From a virus, in the IMG/VR virus record IMGVR_UViG_3300017713_000104, positions 1 through 21,716 of that record: DNA of 21,716 bases, one strand, 5' to 3'. This document shows positions 1,220-21,716 of the stretch, one piece after another. The notes under the pieces are model-generated. The model was given only the letters and a program-made list of their open reading frames with translations, searched no databases and was not told where the DNA came from. The translations under genes were made by a program, and so were the position numbers. Within the stretch, counting starts at the first letter, position 1, and each line of letters starts with the position of its first letter.

Positions 1220-1598
1220 TTCATTAAACCAAATATTATTCGACGATAAATCCTTTGGGGATTTATTAAAAGAAATTCACGGTAATCAAAAGAAAAAAGC
1301 TAAACAACTTGCATCTTTAATTGCTGAATTACGTCCTTTAGTTCAATCTTTAGGCGACGCTACTGTAGTAGTTCCTTTAATTAAGGAATATATGGAAATT
1401 AGTGTTAAAAATGACGATCAACTAATTAAAATGGCCGCTATTGTACAACGTTTATCTTCAAGTACAGTTAATTCAGGAGATGGTGGTTTATTAACTACTG
1501 AGGAAATGGATCAGTTAATGGATGTAGCTGAAGAAATAGCTAAAACTGTTGAAGAAAAACCAAAACAAATAGAAAAAGGAAATGGAGAGATCATTTAA
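1215..1598 (+). CDS. Small helical protein, function unknown
   Basis: A 127-residue protein predicted to be almost entirely helical. It has a charged N-terminal half (QKKKAKQLASLIAEL near residues 25-39), a middle helix with alternating hydrophobics, a glycine turn (SGDGG near 92-96) and an acidic amphipathic C-terminal helix (TTEEMDQLMDVAEEIAKTVEE). No signal peptide, membrane segment or catalytic motif is visible. Its last 17 bases overlap the start of the M15-domain gene, which suggests translational coupling and a role with the hub proteins, for example as a chaperone or small structural subunit. That role is a guess from position only. The start codon lies inside an inverted repeat. Confidence 0.75.
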   Translation: MDSLNQILFDDKSFGDLLKEIHGNQKKKAKQLASLIAELRPLVQSLGDATVVVPLIKEYMEISVKNDDQLIKMAAIVQRLSSSTVNSGDGGLLTTEEMDQLMDVAEEIAKTVEEKPKQIEKGNGEII

Positions 1599-3486
1599 AT
1601 CTGTAAGAGTTATAGATATTATATTAGATGCTTCACATGAAGAATTTACAAATAATGATGATATTGGTAAAATATTTTATAAAGAAATTGAAGATAATTT
1701 ACCCAATTTTCCAGCACCTGTTTCTAGTATATTACATAAAGCTAAACCTTTATTTTCTTTTGTAAAAAGTTATCCTTTAAAAAATGAAATAGTATTAGTA
1801 ATAGAATCACAAGGAAATAATTCATTTATAGATACTACTAGTTATTATTTACCATCCTTAAATATATGGAGTCACCCTCATCATGGAGCTTTTCCTTTTG
1901 GAAATTATATGGCTTCTGATACTTCTGGAATAAAACAATTTAAGAACACAGAAGATGGAGCAGTAAAAAGAGAAGGAACAAATGAAGAACCTTTAGAATT
2001 AAGATTAGGTGAATATTTTCAAGAATCTGAAAATATAAGACCATTATTACCTTATGAAGGAGATATAATATTAGAAGGTAGATTTGGAAATTCTATAAGA
2101 TTTGGTTCTACTACTAACAATGAAATAAATCCTAATAGATGGAGTACAGAAGGAGAAATAGGAAGTCCTATTACTATTATTAGAAATGGACAAATTGGAG
2201 ATGAACAAGACCCTTCAATAGCACCTATAATTGAAGATATAGATGGTGATGATTCAAGTATATATTTAACTTCAGACCAAAAATTAAATAATTTTATACC
2301 TGCATCTTTAAATTTTAAATCGTGGGGAGCTAATTTAGAAAAAACTAAAAAAACAAAACCTACAATTTTAACCCCTACTTTAGATAATCAAATTGAACCT
2401 GAAATAGAAGAACAACCTTTACCTGAAGAAGAAGAACCAGTAATAGTAGAACTAACTCCTATAACTGAAGAGGAAATACAAGAAGAAGAAGAAATAAATG
2501 AAAAAACATTTGAAGATTCTTCTAATGTAACAGAAAATGAAACTGATACTAATAAAATTACTCCCTCATCCACTATAATATTAAATAAAGGTACTTTAAA
2601 ATATAAAATTATTAATCCAGATAAAGACCCAGGATTTGAAGAATTTCAAGAAGTTGATATAAACCAACCTATAGGAGCTAATTTATCTTTAAAACATTTA
2701 ATATCATCTAAAACAGCAAATAATCCTGAATTTGGTATTCATGAAGAAGCAGAACTAGAAAGAGTAGGAATATATTTCCATTACACAGGTACAAGTGAAA
2801 CAGGAGTAGTACAAGGACATCATGTACATGATATATTAGGTTTTTATAAAAATGAAACAGGTCCCTCTAAATGGATAACAATTAAGGATTCAAATATGAC
2901 TATTATTCATGAAACCCAAAAAACTTTTTCTACAAATATACCAGAAATGATAGAATTAGCCGAATCAGCTATATTTAATAATGCTTATAATGATTACAAT
3001 ACACCTAATCCTGGTATAAATAATTACCCTGGTATAGATCCTGATTTAATAAATGGTGAAGAAATTATTAGTAATTTAAAAAAAGTAGTAGAAAATTGTA
3101 TAGATAAAATAATAGAACAATTTCCTTCATTAGAAATAGTATCAGCTTATAGAGGAGCTGAAGTAGATAATTGTGTTGATGCTTCTGCTGGTTTAGACCA
3201 TATAAAAGGATTAGCCATTGATTTTAGAGTTCCTGGAACAAACACATCAGAATTATTTAATTGGTGTTTTGAAAATTTAGAAGAATGGAAAGATTTAATG
3301 TGGGCTTATCCTGAAAGAGAAGCAGATTCTTGGATTCATATATCTTATGAAGAAGGAAAAAACGAAAAACACACAACACTAGCTTCAGAGATAGATTCTA
3401 TACATGAGTGGTATGAAAGTGATAGAAGAGGAAGTTCAGAACAATATCAAGATGGAATATTAGAAGCAAACCAAGAATTAATATAA
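1582..3486 (+). CDS. Probable baseplate hub/tail-associated protein with C-terminal M15 peptidase domain
   Basis: A 634-residue modular protein. Residues 1-100 (SVRVIDIILDASHEEF onward) look like a structural N-terminal domain that also includes the stretch LKNEIVLVIES. Residues 154-200 contain GDIILEGRFGNSIRFGST and GSPITIIRNGQ, a beta-rich segment like those I associate with hub proteins of marine T4-like phages. An acidic Glu-rich linker follows at about 272-312. Residues 505-600 match the M15 (D-Ala-D-Ala carboxypeptidase/VanY-like endopeptidase) pattern: SAYR at 521-524, H540-x6-D547 (HIKGLAID), and WIHIS with H586. These would be the three zinc ligands. The likely job is cutting peptide cross-links of host peptidoglycan at injection, taking the place of the T4 gp5 lysozyme domain. 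The ATG at 1582 is chosen because the frame opens there into the N-terminal motif; it overlaps the previous gene by 17 bases. Confidence 0.82.
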   Translation: MERSFKSVRVIDIILDASHEEFTNNDDIGKIFYKEIEDNLPNFPAPVSSILHKAKPLFSFVKSYPLKNEIVLVIESQGNNSFIDTTSYYLPSLNIWSHPHHGAFPFGNYMASDTSGIKQFKNTEDGAVKREGTNEEPLELRLGEYFQESENIRPLLPYEGDIILEGRFGNSIRFGSTTNNEINPNRWSTEGEIGSPITIIRNGQIGDEQDPSIAPIIEDIDGDDSSIYLTSDQKLNNFIPASLNFKSWGANLEKTKKTKPTILTPTLDNQIEPEIEEQPLPEEEEPVIVELTPITEEEIQEEEEINEKTFEDSSNVTENETDTNKITPSSTIILNKGTLKYKIINPDKDPGFEEFQEVDINQPIGANLSLKHLISSKTANNPEFGIHEEAELERVGIYFHYTGTSETGVVQGHHVHDILGFYKNETGPSKWITIKDSNMTIIHETQKTFSTNIPEMIELAESAIFNNAYNDYNTPNPGINNYPGIDPDLINGEEIISNLKKVVENCIDKIIEQFPSLEIVSAYRGAEVDNCVDASAGLDHIKGLAIDFRVPGTNTSELFNWCFENLEEWKDLMWAYPEREADSWIHISYEEGKNEKHTTLASEIDSIHEWYESDRRGSSEQYQDGILEANQELI

Positions 3487-5546: not shown

Positions 5547-6128
5547 ATGGCAGTAGTTAGATCAGCAAGAAGAATAAATCCATTAGATGCTAATAAAAAT
5601 GTAGCAACTATAGGGGTAGCCTTACCTTTAGATTCAACTAATTTATTTCAAGGAACTCCAACTACTAGAGAACAAGTAAAAACAAATTTACTTAATTTAA
5701 TCCTCACTGAAAAAGGAGAAAGATTAATGCATCCTAATTATGGTTTAGGAGTAAAAAATCTTTTATTTGAACAAGGAATAGACACATTACAATTAGAAGA
5801 AAATATACACTCTCAAATAATGATTTATATTCCTGAAATAGAATTACAAAACACTGATATAGCTACATCAGAAGACGGACATACTATTCAAATAAAAATA
5901 GCTTATAATATTAAAGACAATGCAAACCTTCCAGACGCTATTCAAATAAATATAAGTGATCCTTTCGCAGCTTATCGTGAAGATACAACTTATTATGCAG
6001 AGGGAGACAAAACATTAGCAGGACATACAACACCAATAGAATATGGGGGAGATTTAGTAGGAGACAATGATATAGTTACCTATAATAATTCAATAGCAAT
6101 TAACAATCCTTATGAGGTTGGATTTTAA
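5547..6128 (+). CDS. gp25: Baseplate wedge subunit, gp25-like (GPW/gp25 family)
   Basis: A 193-residue protein that contributes the sheath-initiating part of the wedge in contractile tails. The family signature is at about residues 41-75: REQVKTNLLNLILTEKGERL, then MHPNYGLGVKNLLFE, including the conserved G57-E58-R59 and the P-x-Y-G at 63-66. A second conserved stretch with IAYNIKD lies near residue 120. T4 gp25 is 132 residues; this version has an extra C-terminal stretch of roughly 50 residues with many Tyr, Asp and Gly. The gene is followed 12 bases later by the gp6-like gene, the usual gp25-gp6 neighbourhood of T4-like phages, which strengthens the call. Confidence 0.92.
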   Translation: MAVVRSARRINPLDANKNVATIGVALPLDSTNLFQGTPTTREQVKTNLLNLILTEKGERLMHPNYGLGVKNLLFEQGIDTLQLEENIHSQIMIYIPEIELQNTDIATSEDGHTIQIKIAYNIKDNANLPDAIQINISDPFAAYREDTTYYAEGDKTLAGHTTPIEYGGDLVGDNDIVTYNNSIAINNPYEVGF

Positions 6129-6140
6129 ATAAAATAGACA

Positions 6141-8036
6141 ATGGCTTATACAAAAGTATCAAATAAAGAAGAAACTAGAAGTATTAAATATTTAAATAAA
6201 GATTTTACTTCTTTTAAAAATCAATTAATAGAATATGCAGAAGTCTATTTTCCAAACCACTTTAATGATTTTAGTGAAGGTAATCCAGGAATGATGTTTA
6301 TGGAAATGGCATCATATGTTGGTGATGTTTTGTCTTTTTATACAGATACACAATTAAGAGAATCATTTATAAACACAGCTCAAGAAAGAGAAAATTTATA
6401 TAATTTATCTTATGCTATGGGATATAAACCTAAAGTAACATCAACATCAGTTGTTGATTTAGAAATATTTCAATTAATTCCCTCAATAGATAATGGAGGA
6501 GGAATGTATATTCCAGATTGGAATTATTCTCTAGATATATTAGAAAATTCATCATTTTTATCTACTGAAGGTACTACATTTTATACTAATGAAATAACTC
6601 GTTTTGGGGTATCTTCTTCGTTAAGCCCAACAGATATAAATATTTATCAATACGATAATTCGGGTAACCCCCAATATTATTTATTAAAGAAAACAACAAA
6701 AGCAATTTCAGCTGAAATTTTAACAAAAACTTTTGATATAGGGGATGTTGAACAATTTAAAACACTAACATTATTTAATGATAATATAATAGGAATAGAA
6801 TCTATAACAGATTCTGATGGTAATATATGGACAGAAGTACCTTATTTAGCACAAGATACTGTGTTTGATTCAATGGAAAATACAGCTGCTAATGACCCAG
6901 AATTATATCAATATAACCACCAAACACCTTATCTTTTAAAATTAAAAAAAGTACCTAAAAGATTTGTATCTCGTTTTAAATCTAATAGAGAACTAGAAAT
7001 ACAGTTTGGATCAGGAGCAGCTATTGAAGGAGATGTTATTATAACTCCAGATCCTAATAATATTGGTTTAGGGATTAAAGATGGAAGAAATAAATTAGAT
7101 GTAGCTTATGATCCTTCAAATTTCTTATATACAAAATCTTATGGTGAAGCTCCATCTAACACTACACTAACAGTAAGATTTTTAGTAGGAGGTGGTTTAA
7201 AATCTAATGTAAAAGCAAACACAATAACCCAAACAGGAAAATTATTAATAAACCCTAAATCCAACTTAAATCCTTCTTTATTTAATTTTTCTAAAGGATC
7301 AATAGCAGTAAATAATTCATCACCTGCTAGAGGAGGAGGATCAGGAGATACATTAGAAGAATTAAGAATGAATACCGTTGCTTCTTTTTCAGCTCAAAGT
7401 AGAACAGTAACAAAAAATGATTATATAATTAGAACTTTATCTATGCCTGCTAAATTTGGTAGAGTAGCTAAAGCTTATATAACACAAGATGATCAAATAA
7501 CTCCTTACACAGGTGATCCTACTCGTATTCCTAACCCTTTAGCTTTAAATCTATATACTTTGGGGTATAATGATAGTAAAAAATTATCAAATTTAAATAA
7601 TGCTACTAAAACAAATTTATCTACTTATTTAGAAGAATTTAGAATGTTAACTGATGCTATTAATATTAAAAATGCTTATATAATTAATTTCGGTATTGAT
7701 TTTGAAATTACAACTTTTAAAAACTACAATAATCAAGAAGTATTACTAAATTGTATTTCAGAATTACAAGATTATTTTAATATAGATAAATGGCAAATTA
7801 ATCAACCTATTATTATCTCAGAAATAGAAAATTTAATAGGAGGAGTATTAGGAGTACAAACAGTAGATAAAGTAGATATTAAAAATTTAAACTCAGACGC
7901 TTTAGGATATTCTATTTATAGATACGATTTTAAAGGAGCCACTAAAAAAGGAGTAATTTATCCTTCAATGGATCCTAGTATTTTTGAATTAAAATACCCT
8001 AATGAAGATATTAATGGACGTGTAATAACATATTAA
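6141..8036 (+). CDS. gp6: Baseplate wedge subunit, gp6-like (baseplate J family)
   Basis: A 631-residue protein, close to T4 gp6 (660). Gp6 dimers form the ring of the inner baseplate and connect wedges. The N-terminal region has the typical sequence SIKYLNKDFTSFKNQLIEYA, then NPGMMFMEMASYVGDVLSFY and the following REN-LYNLSYAMGYKP (about residues 45-100). This is the J-like core shared with P2 gpJ. The middle is beta-rich, with VRFLVGGGLKSNVKANTI near residues 343-365. The region GGGSGDTLEELRMNTVASFSAQ, followed by RTVTKNDY (near 395-425), is also characteristic of baseplate J/gp6 proteins. The last 150 residues hold alternating strands and helices (INFGIDFEI). It directly follows gp25 and ends 1 base before the next start. 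Confidence 0.92.
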   Translation: MAYTKVSNKEETRSIKYLNKDFTSFKNQLIEYAEVYFPNHFNDFSEGNPGMMFMEMASYVGDVLSFYTDTQLRESFINTAQERENLYNLSYAMGYKPKVTSTSVVDLEIFQLIPSIDNGGGMYIPDWNYSLDILENSSFLSTEGTTFYTNEITRFGVSSSLSPTDINIYQYDNSGNPQYYLLKKTTKAISAEILTKTFDIGDVEQFKTLTLFNDNIIGIESITDSDGNIWTEVPYLAQDTVFDSMENTAANDPELYQYNHQTPYLLKLKKVPKRFVSRFKSNRELEIQFGSGAAIEGDVIITPDPNNIGLGIKDGRNKLDVAYDPSNFLYTKSYGEAPSNTTLTVRFLVGGGLKSNVKANTITQTGKLLINPKSNLNPSLFNFSKGSIAVNNSSPARGGGSGDTLEELRMNTVASFSAQSRTVTKNDYIIRTLSMPAKFGRVAKAYITQDDQITPYTGDPTRIPNPLALNLYTLGYNDSKKLSNLNNATKTNLSTYLEEFRMLTDAINIKNAYIINFGIDFEITTFKNYNNQEVLLNCISELQDYFNIDKWQINQPIIISEIENLIGGVLGVQTVDKVDIKNLNSDALGYSIYRYDFKGATKKGVIYPSMDPSIFELKYPNEDINGRVITY

Positions 8037-14530: not shown

Positions 14531-17053
14531 ATGCCTTTACCAATAATAAGAAAAATAGCAGATTTACATAGAAGAATAGTATCAAGAGATACTGAAGATT
14601 GGACTAATCATATAGTGTCAGGAGACATAAAAAACCTTTTTGATGGCAATAAAGATACAGTTGTAGAAATAGCTAGTGGATTTGGTGGGACAATTGGAGC
14701 TAATAGTAGATTTATAACATTTGACTTAGGAAAACCAAGAATATTAGACAGAATAGTATTTACTAATGCTACAGGAAATGCATCTTTTGTATTTGATATA
14801 AATTTAAGATTTTGGATCCCTAGTGATGATGTATTTTCAACTAATACTTTTACTGATTTTGCAACAGGATTTAACCATAACTCGGCAACCCCTTTTAATT
14901 ATAAACTTACAGAAAATTCAATTAGTAACCCTGCTCCTTACACAGGTGATTCTACTTCAAAACACCCAGTTCGATATATAAGAATAGATTTAGCAGATAG
15001 TGTTCATTCAACTCCTAATTATCATGCAAATTATTCTCAAAACTTTAAATTTGCAGGTTTAGAAATTTATGAACAATATGAAGCTAAAGATTATAGTGTT
15101 GAATTTAATGATTCTGTTTTAGATTTACAAGGATGGGCGGGACCAAGATATAAAGGATGTAAATCAATAGGTAAAAAAATCAACACATACACAGCAGGAG
15201 ATACTACTTATGGATTAAACCCTAATTTAGAAAATAAAACAACAGCTATTTATATTTCAAATACTTTAGTTGGGGGAAGATCAGATCCTCAATTTGCAAA
15301 TATAGCTCATCATTCTTACATTAATATTGAAAAAATACTTATTGTTGATTTAACTGATGATTCAGTAAGAATATTAGATAAAGGAACAGAACCTTTTAAC
15401 TCATTTCATAGATTTGTAACAACAGATTTTCCAACAGGAGGTAAGTTTTCTATGAAATTAATAGATGAAAGTACTCAATCTAATTTAAAAACATCTTATA
15501 AAGTAAAAATGAATAAAGGATGGTTATTAAGAAGTTTTTCTTATGACGCAGGCCATGGTCCTTTACCTGGGGTAGATGTAGACGGAACCTTTTTAAACAC
15601 ACAAAATGCTAATGTTAATGCTGATTCTGTAAAGGATGCAATAGCAAATCCTATAGCGTTATTTGATGCAGTTTCAGGATCAGTACAAAGAGCAACAACT
15701 CAAGTTTGGGGAGTTACAGATGTAGCACACCCTACTACTACTTTTAATGCACCAGGTGCTGGATTTCCTGATGCAACATCTTTTGGATGTACATCTAACT
15801 GTGCTTGGGCTACAGGAAATGGAGGATTAGGAATATATGGATTACATTCAACAGAAACAGTAGGAGGACAGTATTTTGGAAATACTGACGCAAAAGAAGC
15901 AACAACAGGATCTCTTTTTGAACAATTTAATTATTATAAATACGGAACTACAGTGGGCGCAGGTGTAACTGCAGCTGATTCTGAACCTTACATATCAACT
16001 TATGAACCAACAAGTGTAGGAGAATTAAGATTTAGATATGGTGTAGTAAATAAAATAAATGACGCTATATCAAATGTAGCAGGTAATTTTACTAATTACG
16101 TAATGCAACCTTTATACATAGGAAACAATACAGAATTTGTAGATAATAAATTTACAAGACAATTTGTAGATCCCACTAATAACCAACAAACAAAAACAAG
16201 ATCTTTTGTAATTCCTACAATAGAAGATATAGAAGATAAAAGAGCAGAACAATCTTTAGACCAAAACTTTGCTGTATGGTATAAAGAAACTGAATGGAAT
16301 CCTTCAATGACTGCAAGTGTATTTATTGGAAACTGTATTCAACATTTAAATAATAATTCAGACACTACTGAATTACATTTAACTTTATTTCAAGGTACTA
16401 AAGATTTTTCAGGAAAAGATGACGAATTAAGTATAAGTACTTTTGAAGTAGATAAAAATTTAGATCCTAATTATTTAGATTTTGAATCAAGTATAGGACC
16501 TATAACAAAAACAATTGGACCAAGATTAAGATATTTAAAATTAAAAAACCAACCACAATTTAAACCAACAACACCATTAGCACATGTTTCATCTTCTGAT
16601 TTTTCAACTCCTGGAAGTCCTGCACATACTATTAATGAAACAGGAAGAGACAGATGTATTTTTGACACAATAGAAACAGACCAATTTAGAGCAGAAATAT
16701 TAGAAAAACAAAATGCATTTGTGTTTGGTCCAGGTTCAACCAATCAAGCCCTAGATGCAGACACTGGTTTTTCAACTAGTAATTATGGAGCAACTTATGA
16801 TAATAATAATGATAATTCTCAAAATTTCTCAGGATCTTTTAGTTATGAACTTTCTTTCTTAGATAAAGACCATACACTTATCGCTGACGTAGATATAGTT
16901 CCTGAATTATTTGATGGAATAGGACATATGGGACTTGCCTTAGTACCAGAACATACACATGAAATGGTAAAATTAAATTTAGAATATTATTTATTTAAAG
17001 CAGGAGTAGGTGAAAACAATGTAACAAAAAGATTTATTACTAATAATGATTAA
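14531..17053 (+). CDS. Large tail/baseplate protein with N-terminal discoidin-like domain
   Basis: An 840-residue protein. Residues about 30-182 resemble an F5/8 type C (discoidin, galactose-binding-like) fold: DIKNLFDGNKDT opens it, FITFDLGKPRILDRIVFTN gives the central strands, INLRFWIPSDD follows, VRYIRIDL comes near 152, and FKFAGLEIYEQ closes it. The middle is glycine- and threonine-rich, with a Cys pair (FGCTSNCAW). The C-terminal third (about 560-840) is beta-rich, including LHLTLFQGTKDFSG and LRYLKLKNQ, and has the acidic patch LLIADVDIVPELFDG-like region near 780-800. No enzyme motif is visible. It starts 2 bases after the 1198-residue protein gene. A carbohydrate-binding baseplate or fibre-like protein is the likely role. 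The fold call is from the spacing of motifs, not from an alignment. Confidence 0.65.
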   Translation: MPLPIIRKIADLHRRIVSRDTEDWTNHIVSGDIKNLFDGNKDTVVEIASGFGGTIGANSRFITFDLGKPRILDRIVFTNATGNASFVFDINLRFWIPSDDVFSTNTFTDFATGFNHNSATPFNYKLTENSISNPAPYTGDSTSKHPVRYIRIDLADSVHSTPNYHANYSQNFKFAGLEIYEQYEAKDYSVEFNDSVLDLQGWAGPRYKGCKSIGKKINTYTAGDTTYGLNPNLENKTTAIYISNTLVGGRSDPQFANIAHHSYINIEKILIVDLTDDSVRILDKGTEPFNSFHRFVTTDFPTGGKFSMKLIDESTQSNLKTSYKVKMNKGWLLRSFSYDAGHGPLPGVDVDGTFLNTQNANVNADSVKDAIANPIALFDAVSGSVQRATTQVWGVTDVAHPTTTFNAPGAGFPDATSFGCTSNCAWATGNGGLGIYGLHSTETVGGQYFGNTDAKEATTGSLFEQFNYYKYGTTVGAGVTAADSEPYISTYEPTSVGELRFRYGVVNKINDAISNVAGNFTNYVMQPLYIGNNTEFVDNKFTRQFVDPTNNQQTKTRSFVIPTIEDIEDKRAEQSLDQNFAVWYKETEWNPSMTASVFIGNCIQHLNNNSDTTELHLTLFQGTKDFSGKDDELSISTFEVDKNLDPNYLDFESSIGPITKTIGPRLRYLKLKNQPQFKPTTPLAHVSSSDFSTPGSPAHTINETGRDRCIFDTIETDQFRAEILEKQNAFVFGPGSTNQALDADTGFSTSNYGATYDNNNDNSQNFSGSFSYELSFLDKDHTLIADVDIVPELFDGIGHMGLALVPEHTHEMVKLNLEYYLFKAGVGENNVTKRFITNND

Positions 17054-17850: not shown

Positions 17851-19011
17851 ATGAGCTTAGTAAGATTTGATCCACAATCAGACATCCGTATCCAAACAGA
17901 CAAATTAACAACATCAACTTGGACAGGTAATAGAAATAATTTAGAAGATTTTATGTACACTTCTTCCCTTCAAGCAGGGGGACAAGCAGGACAATTATAT
18001 CCTCAATCACCAACAAGTTCAGCTTGGTTTTACCTTGATGTATATGATAAAGATCCTTCTTCTTCTCTAGCAGAAGTACAATTTGCTGCTGCTTATGGAC
18101 ATAGAGCAGGATCAGGATCACCTGATTTTACAAATGATACAGGTTCTTTTGGATTAAATGCCTCAAGAACAGTATATAGTCAATACCGTCAATTAGTTTA
18201 TGGAGAAGAAAATCAAAACTTTATATTTGGATCTCATGTATCTGATCACATTTATGTAGTTAATGTAAATAGAGCTAGATATAAACACGGATTAGCTACA
18301 AGTACTTTATCTTTACATTTATCAGGAGCTGCTTGTATTGGAGCTCAAACAGCAGCTACATATGCTCCTTGTACAAATAATGGTTTCTTACAACTTACAG
18401 ATGATAGTATTTCTTCTAACGGAGCTGCTATACAAACAAATATAGGAAGACAATTTAATATAGTATCAGGAGCTAGTGGGGTTTATAGTGGTTCTTCAGC
18501 AAAACAAATAGCAGGAAGTAGTTCATACGGTTTATTTTACCCAGATGCAGGAATAGCTATTTTAAATGCTGATGCTTTTAAAACAACAGCTATAGATTCA
18601 GACACTGATGCAGAAGCTATCTTAGCTAATTCACATGTACCTTTAGGTGCATACACAGCTTCAGGACTTCATAGTGAATATACAACTGCAGAACACTTTA
18701 ATACTCAAAAATTATATAAAGCAATTTCAGGAGCAGCACATTTTATAGTAGATAGTGAAGAAGTAATAACATCTCAATATTATTTTGCAAGAGCTAAAAA
18801 TTTTGAATTTAATTATACTAATAACCCATCATTCCAAGATTCAACAGGTAATTTAACTTTTCAAAGTATGATATCTAATCCAAAAACTTATATTACAACT
18901 GTAGGATTATATAATGATAATAGTGAATTATTAGCAGTAGCTAAATTAAGTCAACCAGTTGCAAAAGATTTTACAAAGGAAGCTTTATTTAGAATTAAAT
19001 TAGACTTTTAA
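17851..19011 (+). CDS. Tail/baseplate structural protein sharing a C-terminal module with the next gene
   Basis: A 386-residue protein. It is rich in Ser, Ala, Gly and Thr and mostly beta-like. A central stretch reads HIYVVNVNRARYKHGL, then strands ending FLQLTDDS. The C-terminus (about 347-372) contains YITTVGLYNDNSELLAVAKL and SQPV. The next protein ends with a matching module (YVTTIGLYNEAGDCLVVGKL, GQPI), so the two likely dock on the same partner. Cysteines at the middle (AACIGAQ, APCTNN) are close enough to pair. The gene starts 14 bases after its neighbour, behind an A-rich leader. A tail accessory or baseplate outer part is the best guess. It lacks the LamG-like and Lcl-like parts of the downstream protein. 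Confidence 0.75.
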   Translation: MSLVRFDPQSDIRIQTDKLTTSTWTGNRNNLEDFMYTSSLQAGGQAGQLYPQSPTSSAWFYLDVYDKDPSSSLAEVQFAAAYGHRAGSGSPDFTNDTGSFGLNASRTVYSQYRQLVYGEENQNFIFGSHVSDHIYVVNVNRARYKHGLATSTLSLHLSGAACIGAQTAATYAPCTNNGFLQLTDDSISSNGAAIQTNIGRQFNIVSGASGVYSGSSAKQIAGSSSYGLFYPDAGIAILNADAFKTTAIDSDTDAEAILANSHVPLGAYTASGLHSEYTTAEHFNTQKLYKAISGAAHFIVDSEEVITSQYYFARAKNFEFNYTNNPSFQDSTGNLTFQSMISNPKTYITTVGLYNDNSELLAVAKLSQPVAKDFTKEALFRIKLDF

Positions 19012-19024
19012 AAATGTTCTCTGA

Positions 19025-21457
19025 ATGTACGCTTATAAAAAACTCACAGCACAAGACTCAGCAGTAGTACCCTTTAATGCTCATAAACAATATGATTTTG
19101 ATTCTGCCTCTTGTTCTGACAACCAAATAGACCATTATAATACTCAATGGACTTCAGAGTCTATTTCTCTTTATAGTTCAGCTAGTTCTGTTTATGGGGG
19201 TGATTCTAAAAATGTAATAAAATACCAACAACTAGATCATCTTTTTTATAGAGAATTTCCACATAATCATTCTAACACATTAGGAAGTTTTCATTATTTA
19301 AAACAAAAAAGAAATCTATATGAAAAAGCAAACATACTATCTATCCCAACAGGTTTATATGGATATGAAATAAAACCAGGATCTTTTTACCTTAAAACAA
19401 CAGGTGGTACTGAAGTAGTAGATGATTCACATGGTAATCTTCTTATAAGTGGAACATTTACAAGTAGTGATTATCCTGTAGATATTCGAGAAAATGTTTT
19501 TAGATTAGATCCTATAAAAGGTTTTAAAGATTACGATTTAGGAGTTTATAAGGATTATGCACTTAAATTTGTTAACCCTCAACACCCTGAAGCAGGAATA
19601 AAAAAGGTTTTTTATAAAAGAGGAGAAATAAAAGCAAATTCCCCTACAACCTATTCTACCCCAGACGACATATTTGAAACAGACGATAGTTATTTTTATA
19701 ATTCTTTCAAATACAATAAAGTAAATTTTCATTCATCTTCTATAAAATCAAATAATACCATATTTAATACGAGTTCATCGTTCTCATCTATAGTATTTGA
19801 TAGTATAACAGGTTCTAATATAGTATCAGAACACAATGAAAGATATAATTTTAACAGAGATGATGATTTTGCTATATCTTTTTATATGGAACCTAGAGTG
19901 TTAAGTAATCCTCCAGTAGCTAATGCAGTAGCTGTTGGGGATAATTTTCAAGGAGGAATAGTTTTTCATATAGATGGATTTGAAGCTTACATTGTAAATC
20001 CATTTCCTATTTTAGATTTTCATGGTTCAGATAAATTTTGGGGAGCTGGTGGACTATCAATTAATGGACAAGCTAGTACTACAATAGGTGAGGGAGAAAC
20101 ATTTACTCAAAATATGGTAACCAATGACCCTAATGGAACATTTTTAGGAACTCATGTACAAAATAAAACAATAGGAGGATATAATGATTGGTGGCTTCCT
20201 ACAAAACATGAAATACATACATTTACACAATTGTCAAATTTTGCTAACCTTTTTTCTTATGATGGAGTTAATACTTTTAATGATTTAGGAATTACAGGAT
20301 TAGGAACAAATGCAATTAACAATGTTGATGTAAGTATTGTATCAAGTAATGATGGGTCAAACATATTTTTGGTACACGTCGCCTCTCCTTTTACCAATAA
20401 TCTTAATATTCCTCAAAGTAAAACAACACCTATAACAAATGATGTATCTAAAAATAATTTAATTTATCCTGTTAGAAAAGTCAATTTAAGTACTTTTGAT
20501 AGTAGTAGAAGATATATAATAGCAAAAAGTACAACAAGATCAGTTATACCAACAGCAATGCAAGGAAGATCTGAAATTTTAAATATGGATTCAATAGGGG
20601 GCCTTACAGAAACAGGATCTAATATGCAACCTAAAGGAATACCCGCTGAACCACAATTTCCTTTTGAAATTTATATGGTAAGTCAATCTTTACACTTTGA
20701 TAGATCTGATGGTGAACATACAATATCTCTTTCTTGTGAAGTAACAGAATCTGGTTTTTCAGATGCTTCTAAAAATGGTAGTGCTGAAAAATTAACCCAT
20801 ATTCTTTGTCAAACATCAGCTTCTAATATGGAAATTTATTTTGATGGTGTTTTAAGAGAATCATCATCACTTACGGGTTCATTAAAAAAACAAACACAAA
20901 ATAAAGCTAATTTATACATTGGTTCAAAAGGAGAAGAAAGTAAAACAGATGGTTTTGATCCAAATTATCATTTTAAATATTTTAATGGAAAATTAACTTC
21001 TATAAACATTTATGAAGAAGTATTTAACCAAACAGAAGTAAAAAACATATCTGAAAGTATAAATGGATCTCCTTATATAGGAAATTTATTCTATAGAAAT
21101 GGTTTTGCAACAATAACTCATCCAAAATACCATGATATACTTTCAGGTTCAACAGGAAATGGAACTATTAGTAAATTAAAATTCCAAGGTACACACCAAA
21201 TGTATGAACATGAATATCAATGTACTGTTGATGAACATGAATTTAATCAAACACTTAATTTAACAACAAGAGAAATAAAATCTAATAACAATTATAATTT
21301 AGCAGGTTTTACAACAAGTTCATTTTTTAAACCCTATGTTACAACAATTGGTTTATATAATGAAGCAGGAGATTGTCTTGTAGTAGGTAAATTAGGACAG
21401 CCAATAAGAATGTCAAACGAAACTGACACTACTTTCGTACTTCGTTGGGATACCTAA
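19025..21457 (+). CDS. Probable receptor-binding/host-contact protein: LamG-like fold interrupted by an Lcl/DUF1566-like domain
   Basis: An 810-residue protein. The N-terminal 275 residues form a structural part (YGYEIKPGSFYLK, VVDDSHGNLLIS). A LamG-like jelly roll begins with DDFAISFYMEPR (280-291) and resumes with RRYIIAKSTTR after residue 490, continuing through MEIYFDGVLRESSSLTG and the closing strands around FNGKLTSINIYEE to about 690. Between these halves, residues about 300-487 match the Lcl/DUF1566-type pattern: VGDNFQGGIVFHI (304-316), a Trp-Gly region (FWGAGG), TTIGEGE, GGYNDWWLPTKHEI (384-397), a SS-containing strand and a final PVRKV. This domain type is lectin-like and is seen in adhesins. 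The C-terminus carries the YVTTIGLYN module shared with the upstream protein. The start at 19025 fits the N-terminal pattern MYAYKKLTAQDSAVVPF; a nearby ATG at 19014 is out of frame and short. Confidence 0.75.
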   Translation: MYAYKKLTAQDSAVVPFNAHKQYDFDSASCSDNQIDHYNTQWTSESISLYSSASSVYGGDSKNVIKYQQLDHLFYREFPHNHSNTLGSFHYLKQKRNLYEKANILSIPTGLYGYEIKPGSFYLKTTGGTEVVDDSHGNLLISGTFTSSDYPVDIRENVFRLDPIKGFKDYDLGVYKDYALKFVNPQHPEAGIKKVFYKRGEIKANSPTTYSTPDDIFETDDSYFYNSFKYNKVNFHSSSIKSNNTIFNTSSSFSSIVFDSITGSNIVSEHNERYNFNRDDDFAISFYMEPRVLSNPPVANAVAVGDNFQGGIVFHIDGFEAYIVNPFPILDFHGSDKFWGAGGLSINGQASTTIGEGETFTQNMVTNDPNGTFLGTHVQNKTIGGYNDWWLPTKHEIHTFTQLSNFANLFSYDGVNTFNDLGITGLGTNAINNVDVSIVSSNDGSNIFLVHVASPFTNNLNIPQSKTTPITNDVSKNNLIYPVRKVNLSTFDSSRRYIIAKSTTRSVIPTAMQGRSEILNMDSIGGLTETGSNMQPKGIPAEPQFPFEIYMVSQSLHFDRSDGEHTISLSCEVTESGFSDASKNGSAEKLTHILCQTSASNMEIYFDGVLRESSSLTGSLKKQTQNKANLYIGSKGEESKTDGFDPNYHFKYFNGKLTSINIYEEVFNQTEVKNISESINGSPYIGNLFYRNGFATITHPKYHDILSGSTGNGTISKLKFQGTHQMYEHEYQCTVDEHEFNQTLNLTTREIKSNNNYNLAGFTTSSFFKPYVTTIGLYNEAGDCLVVGKLGQPIRMSNETDTTFVLRWDT
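19901..20485 (+). other. Inserted Lcl/DUF1566-like domain (within the 810-aa protein)
   Basis: This segment codes for residues about 293-487, which split the LamG-like domain. Its key motifs in order are QGGIVFHI, FWGAGG, TIGEGE, GGYNDWWLPT and PVRKV. Removing it would rejoin SFYMEPR with RRYIIAK, an uninterrupted jelly-roll strand order. Base composition is not clearly different from the flanks. Confidence 0.6.
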
Positions 21458-21481: not shown

Positions 21482-21716
21482 ATGTGGTACTATCAAGAAA
21501 AAACAATTAATGAAATCGTTGACCTTCCTAAAGGAGCATTCGGTTTTATTTATCAAACAACTCATTTACCAACTGGAAAAAGGTACATTGGTAAAAAATC
21601 TTTAATTTACAATTTAAAGAAAAAATTAGGCAAAAAAGAAAAAGCCCTATATGAAGGAAAAGGTCGCCCACCAACATTCAAGAGAGTGTTAAAAGAAAGC
21701 GATTGGAAAACTTACT
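21482..21716 (+). CDS. GIY-YIG family endonuclease, N-terminal part (3' truncated)
   Basis: The frame from ATG at 21482 is open to the window edge and gives 78 residues. GAFGFIYQTT (18-27) followed by TGKRYIGKK (31-39) is the GIY-YIG signature, with the GFIY strand and the YIG turn spaced 10 residues apart. A lysine-rich stretch and ESDWKTY follow, close to the layout of the small GIY-YIG nucleases found free-standing in T4-like phages. These are often homing or DNA-processing enzymes. The catalytic Arg/Glu helix is only partly visible, so activity cannot be judged. The gene follows a 24-base gap after the 810-residue protein gene and has no Shine-Dalgarno sequence. Confidence 0.85.
   Translation, partial: MWYYQEKTINEIVDLPKGAFGFIYQTTHLPTGKRYIGKKSLIYNLKKKLGKKEKALYEGKGRPPTFKRVLKESDWKTY

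Follow-up and report, generated by a model that had tools for sequence, protein, structure and literature searches.

The last complete gene of the marine phage sequence analysed here encodes an 810-aa protein in which the strands of a LamG-like jelly roll break off and resume on the far side of a 195-aa insert. This raises the question of whether the insert is a domain in its own right, whether it is exchanged between carriers and what it may do for the virion. A preliminary description had taken it for an exchangeable receptor-binding tip of the Lcl/DUF1566 type, placed in a loop of a carrier. The window, i.e. the whole stretch of DNA analysed, is a 21,716-nt (21.7-kb) IMG/VR virus record, which may be a fragment. 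The carrier gene and the neighbours that define its setting are the following:

5547-6128: gp25-like baseplate wedge gene (GPW_gp25, E 4.9e-12)
6141-8036: gp6-like gene (PHROG 219 'baseplate wedge subunit', E 2.1e-15)
17851..19011, plus strand: upstream 386-aa gene whose C-terminal YITTVGLYND...AKLSQP resembles the motif of the carrier (39% over 41 aa)
19025..21457, plus strand: ORF of the 810-aa carrier protein, 3' of the gp25-/gp6-like wedge genes

The top named relatives of the gp6-like product were those of Flavobacterium phage immuto (48%) and Microcystis phage Mel-JY01 (47%), and in immuto, tail fibre and tail spike genes are found 3' of the carrier homologue. From this gene order, we infer that the carrier is part of the virion. 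It is very improbable that it acts as a secreted or intracellular protein instead: while its nearest named phage relatives are annotated as hypothetical proteins, the gene sits in a baseplate/tail block and shares its C-terminal motif with the upstream neighbour, suggesting a C-terminal anchoring domain common to the 386-aa and 810-aa proteins. Neither Pfam nor PHROGs placed the carrier in a family of Dit (distal tail) proteins.

Further genes of the window were annotated along the way. An 840-aa protein of the same tail block (14531-17053) shows an N-terminal match to F5/8 type C (discoidin) domains below the cut-off (E 8e-4), possibly another binding module, and a 634-aa protein (1582-3486) ends in an endolysin/peptidase M15-like match (PHROG 894, E 5.1e-9). 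The end of the window cuts a SegE GIY-YIG endonuclease-like gene, of which the 5' part is present (21482-21716) and which was named by its likeness to L005:12233-12658 (PF19835, E 2.5e-22). Between the carrier and the SegE-like gene, locus L005 encodes a 711-aa protein with ITASGNISSSG repeats; in L003 nothing lies between them.

Within the carrier, profile matches, homologues and an AlphaFold2 (AF2) model led to the following layout:

19025..19537, plus strand: N-terminal core, residues 1-171, still identifiable in the 357-aa immuto relative without LamG
19775..19897, plus strand: opening strands of LamG up to SFYMEPR, residues ~251-291 (AF2 strands 254-258, 265-268 and 282-290)
19901..20485, plus strand: Lcl/DUF1566-like insert in slot A, residues 293-487, 195 aa, based on profile matches and homologues
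20498..21070, plus strand: rest of LamG, residues ~492-682 (Laminin_G_3 at 556-673, E 1.3e-9; AF2 strands from 495)
21071..21454, plus strand: C-terminal core, residues 683-810, with the PYVTTIGLYNE...GKLGQP motif, common to relatives
21137..21166, plus strand: slot B, residues ~705-714, empty in the window protein and holding 124-585 aa in relatives (propeller-like or carbohydrate-binding-module-like)

All motifs on which the preliminary description relied are present in a single ORF and in the order it gave (SFYMEPR 285-291, QGGIVFHI 309-316, GGYNDWWLPT 384-393, PVRKV 482-486, RRYIIAKSTTR 495-505), and positions 19901-20485 correspond exactly to residues 293-487. Its view that the insert interrupts LamG was confirmed as well. 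The Laminin_G_3 profile (PF13385) matched the protein above the cut-off (38.8 versus 27.6 bits), covering profile positions 46-151 only, all of them C-terminal of the insert. In the insert-free relatives L023, L026, L075, L028 and L007, the last being the 591-aa homologue of Mel-JY01, the same profile runs unbroken across the site, from about position 11-13 to 150-151, and LamG of the window protein is therefore truly split.

The full-length AF2 model, built on 62 sequences, had a mean pLDDT of 69.6, with most of LamG at 80-94. In this model, strand 282-290 is followed by the insert and then by strands 495-500, 504-507 and 537-540 onward, meaning that the predicted jelly roll resumes after the insert and that residues 280-690 do not form one continuous unrelated fold. 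Parts of the insert reached pLDDT values of 75-88, with residues 411-475 unreliable. Modelled alone, the insert gave a poor model (pLDDT 46.8) and, at that quality, no match in the PDB; a profile search of PDB sequences with the inserts likewise returned no relative and one chance match (E 0.84). The full model matched ConA-like jelly rolls such as pentraxins. Clostridial neurotoxin binding domains in the same list were set aside, as they reflect this common fold and say nothing about toxicity. Among viral folds (BFVD), the model matched A0A218ML58 (1299 aa) and A0A218MMN2 (657 aa) from uncultured viruses (40% and 35% identity). Both belong to the same family by fold and sequence and have lengths that fit two-insert and insert-free forms, and neither is given a function. 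At the short end of the family, the 357-aa immuto homologue has no LamG match and aligns over the carrier's first ~150 residues and over residues 684-809. This composition suggests a core adaptor into which LamG may have been placed.

Next, we considered the identity of the insert. The Pfam profile Lcl_C (PF07603) matched it at 15-17 bits (E 0.01-0.03), below the cut-off of 34.9 and chiefly over the GGYNDWWLPT region; a search of the window record alone gave E 7.3e-5, likewise below the cut-off. Among ten homologous inserts, about 26-35% identical to that of the window, Lcl_C was the top Pfam match for all ten (best E 1.5e-4), and the match is therefore beyond chance. The identity proposed in the preliminary description stands in this weaker form: because 16.6 bits fall short of 34.9, we term the insert Lcl-like and not a member of Lcl_C. 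Phage proteins not related to the carrier also contain relatives of the insert, and there the domain is usually C-terminal: for 20 of the 23 other phage ORFs that have it, at most 125 aa separate the end of the match from the C-terminus. Ten of the eleven cellular relatives in GTDB genomes belong to Bacteroidota; one of them lies within a 3089-aa repeat protein from a Crocinitomicaceae bacterium. This distribution, along with the Flavobacterium phage relatives, suggests a host within the Bacteroidota.

In order to see how slot A is occupied elsewhere, relatives were collected in successive scans, whose counts reflect what the scans returned and not natural frequencies. Relatives found in the first scan at 44% identity keep the Lcl-like insert (about 28-31% identical) and carry ~500 aa more at residues 705-714. 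An alignment-based scan comprised 80 loci with 73 distinct carriers. Of these, 45 had an empty slot A (0-33 aa between residues ~290 and ~490), 21 had an Lcl-like occupant there and six an unrelated domain of 136-140 aa; one further carrier, L040, has an insertion just upstream of the slot. A second scan of IMG/VR yielded at least 583 confirmed candidate relatives, and a profile-based recount was made on 106 distinct proteins with both LamG halves. Here, the slot was empty (at most 42 aa) in 68, Lcl-like in 22, the window counted, and occupied by the ~138-aa domain in eight, so that homologues lacking or replacing residues 293-487, as expected for an exchangeable segment, do exist. The remainder comprised four proteins with 71-74 aa, one (L163) whose occupant looks, from its sequence, like a distant relative of the ~138-aa domain, and three with extra sequence later in LamG. 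These three (L158, L164 and L165) had been candidates for slot-A inserts of 270-306 aa and were rejected, their extra sequence lying at ~590 and ~554. The ~138-aa occupant had no match among named phages.

These states bear on the alternative that the insert is a divergent, lineage-specific elaboration of a LamG loop and no separate domain at all. An Lcl_C score under the curated cut-off and the poorly modelled residues 411-475 would agree with it. However, Lcl_C is the first match for ten out of ten inserts, relatives occur in unrelated phage and Bacteroidota proteins, and the slot can be empty or hold unrelated sequence, which largely refutes this alternative and leaves it highly unlikely.

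The content of slot A has been exchanged between carriers, for which the ~138-aa occupant provides direct evidence. Between L064 and L126, carriers are 92-96% identical and occupants 56%, while for L061 and L126 the carriers share 67-74% (C-terminal core 83%) and the occupants 86%. Accordingly, the carrier tree groups L048 with L054 and L126 with L064 (both 100/100), whereas the occupant tree separates L048, L061 and L126 from L066, L054 and L064 (100/98). The same pattern is found in the DNA, where identity falls abruptly at the slot edges: between L064 and L126 it is mostly 0.9-1.0 outside the slot and 0.44-0.78 inside, with a second divergent patch near residues 121-160, and between L126 and L061 the slot has the higher identity (0.83-0.97, against mostly 0.57-0.90 elsewhere). 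In addition, the slot is empty in L075, whose carrier is 86% identical to that of the filled L064. On the carrier tree, the empty/filled label requires at least 6-7 changes. The distribution of Lcl requires only 2-3, and it may thus be long-inherited and not often swapped.

For the Lcl-like insert itself, the case appears to be one of presence or absence and fast divergence, with no clean swap between near-identical carriers, and exchange itself is shown directly for the ~138-aa occupant only. With L065 and L127 left out as members of the ~138-aa group, the Lcl occupant was less identical than its own carrier in 205 of 210 pairs, which are not independent of each other; mean identities were 0.29 versus 0.54 for distant and 0.50 versus 0.77 for closer pairs. 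In four informative pairs (L010/L011, L003/L006, L003/L016 and L005/L006), Nei-Gojobori dN/dS amounted to 0.61-0.75 in the Lcl domain and 0.18-0.22 in the N-terminal part. None of the ratios rises above 1, which falls short of proof of positive selection, and since dS is raised in several inserts, part of the divergence may be due to recombination and not to selection. The pattern fits relaxed or diversifying selection together with recombination.

The pair of near-identical carriers L011 and L012 differs by 40 non-synonymous changes in the insert, three in the N-terminal part and none in the LamG remainder and C-terminal part. Such a confinement of differences to the Lcl domain would be expected of a target of a diversity-generating retroelement (DGR), and in human microbiomes the variable proteins of DGRs contain DUF1566 more often than any other Pfam domain (PMC4159848). 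Nevertheless, we regard this explanation as scarcely credible, because reverse transcriptase was found in none of 15 records (two long phage genome records, most others fragments) and the inserts of the window and L002 show no difference at all. Moreover, the differences between L011:1992-2807 and L012:7093-7911 form dense patches (e.g. FNTTTAPAG / YTPFVPGNP) with substitutions of all kinds and an indel, and without adenine bias.

Slot A is not the only insertion site, as carrier relatives have insertions at four further places. Insertions of at least 50 aa were located at ~241, 291/489, 554, ~590 and 705-716 by a scan that catches only part of them; within this partial sensitivity and size limit, the N- and C-terminal cores of the relatives contained no insertion. 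Some occupants contain insertions themselves: the Lcl profile matches the L030 and L031 occupants in two separate pieces (for L031, occupant residues 16-85 and 273-389), and the intervening stretch is related (44% over 43-65 aa) to the slot B module of L014, for which Pfam gives a weak match to CBM_4_9. In L003-L006 and L015-L022, slot B holds 511-585 aa between LamG and the C-terminal core (L005:8196-9728), with repeats of the type DGTKYYVAN / PSGTSLYFIG / DGTKFFTVH that appear propeller-like by eye and have no convincing Pfam match. The large insertion of L158 (L158:3001-5409), like those of L164 and L165, lies at another LamG position and appears discoidin-like (F5/8C) by eye. It can be tentatively proposed, as a reading that we find nearly even but do not lean towards, that a large family of tailed phages, most of them known from marine metagenomes, uses one scaffold with at least five sites in LamG loops or borders, at which Lcl-, CBM-, discoidin-, propeller-like or other modules, some with inserts of their own and all passed between phages by recombination, would set virion binding.

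For the window protein, the reading that we favour, with some reservation, is a nested carrier. The conserved N- and C-terminal cores (~1-171 and 683-810) would probably anchor the protein to the virion in the tail/baseplate region, with the LamG jelly roll placed between them and its loop (slot A, from the strand end at ~290 to the strand start at ~495) displaying an exchangeable domain, here the Lcl-like one. This occupant would serve to bind glycans or cell surfaces, adding to adsorption or altering it, as the family of the Legionella Lcl C-terminal domain and the evolved Dit proteins discussed below would suggest. Recombination in the slot could then retune binding while the assembly-critical cores stay unchanged. 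Alternatively, the nested domains could be accessory adhesins that attach, as Ig-like or CBM decorations do, to extracellular matrix, exopolysaccharide or particles and do not decide host range, with a turnover that tracks the environment and not receptor choice. The several kinds of occupants (Lcl-like, ~138-aa, CBM_4_9-like and propeller-like), the empty slot in most relatives and the binding of sulphated glycosaminoglycans by Legionella Lcl are in line with such adhesins, whereas the adjacency of baseplate and tail fibre genes and the concentration of variation in the occupants speak against them. We consider this alternative unlikely, if still a serious one.

The nested carrier differs from the usual account of tail binding-domain exchange, in which terminal domains are swapped, in that the exchanged part lies within a further folded domain and both flanks stay nearly the same. 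In more than 100 natural carriers, this slot is either vacant or filled by one domain family or another, and natural pairs differing mainly in the slot (L064/L075, L064/L126 and L011/L012) make the share of the nested domain in adsorption directly testable. Annotation by the best Pfam hit reads such proteins as 'LamG' and misses the part that is likely relevant to binding.

Among known systems, the evolved Dit of lactococcal skunaviruses comes closest; there, carbohydrate-binding domains inserted in a conserved tail protein alter adsorption and host range (PMC10688798). In both systems, shorter relatives align with the two ends of the protein, and differing domains are inserted mid-protein between conserved flanks. 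However, the carrier described here has LamG and no Dit match, it belongs to T4-like (gp25/gp6) phages, and its Lcl-like or ~138-aa occupants are putative binders. The Lcl C-terminal domain of Legionella is C-type-lectin-like and binds (sulphated) glycosaminoglycans (PMC11162425). It shares the motif order with the window insert, and its family is the best Pfam match for all inserts, whereas the window insert scores below the gathering threshold, is internal and lacks a collagen repeat; a literature search on Lcl, DUF1566 and phage returned nothing. The carrier domain is a member of the Laminin_G_3/ConA-like jelly rolls of phage proteins (PF13385), but its loops hold other domains (slot A, and in relatives also ~554 and ~590). 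Finally, binding domains are also exchanged among the tail proteins of related phages in the shuffling of receptor-binding proteins (PMC10684548); the example given in the neck passage of that article swaps a C-terminal domain, whereas here the swapped domain is nested and both flanks are conserved.
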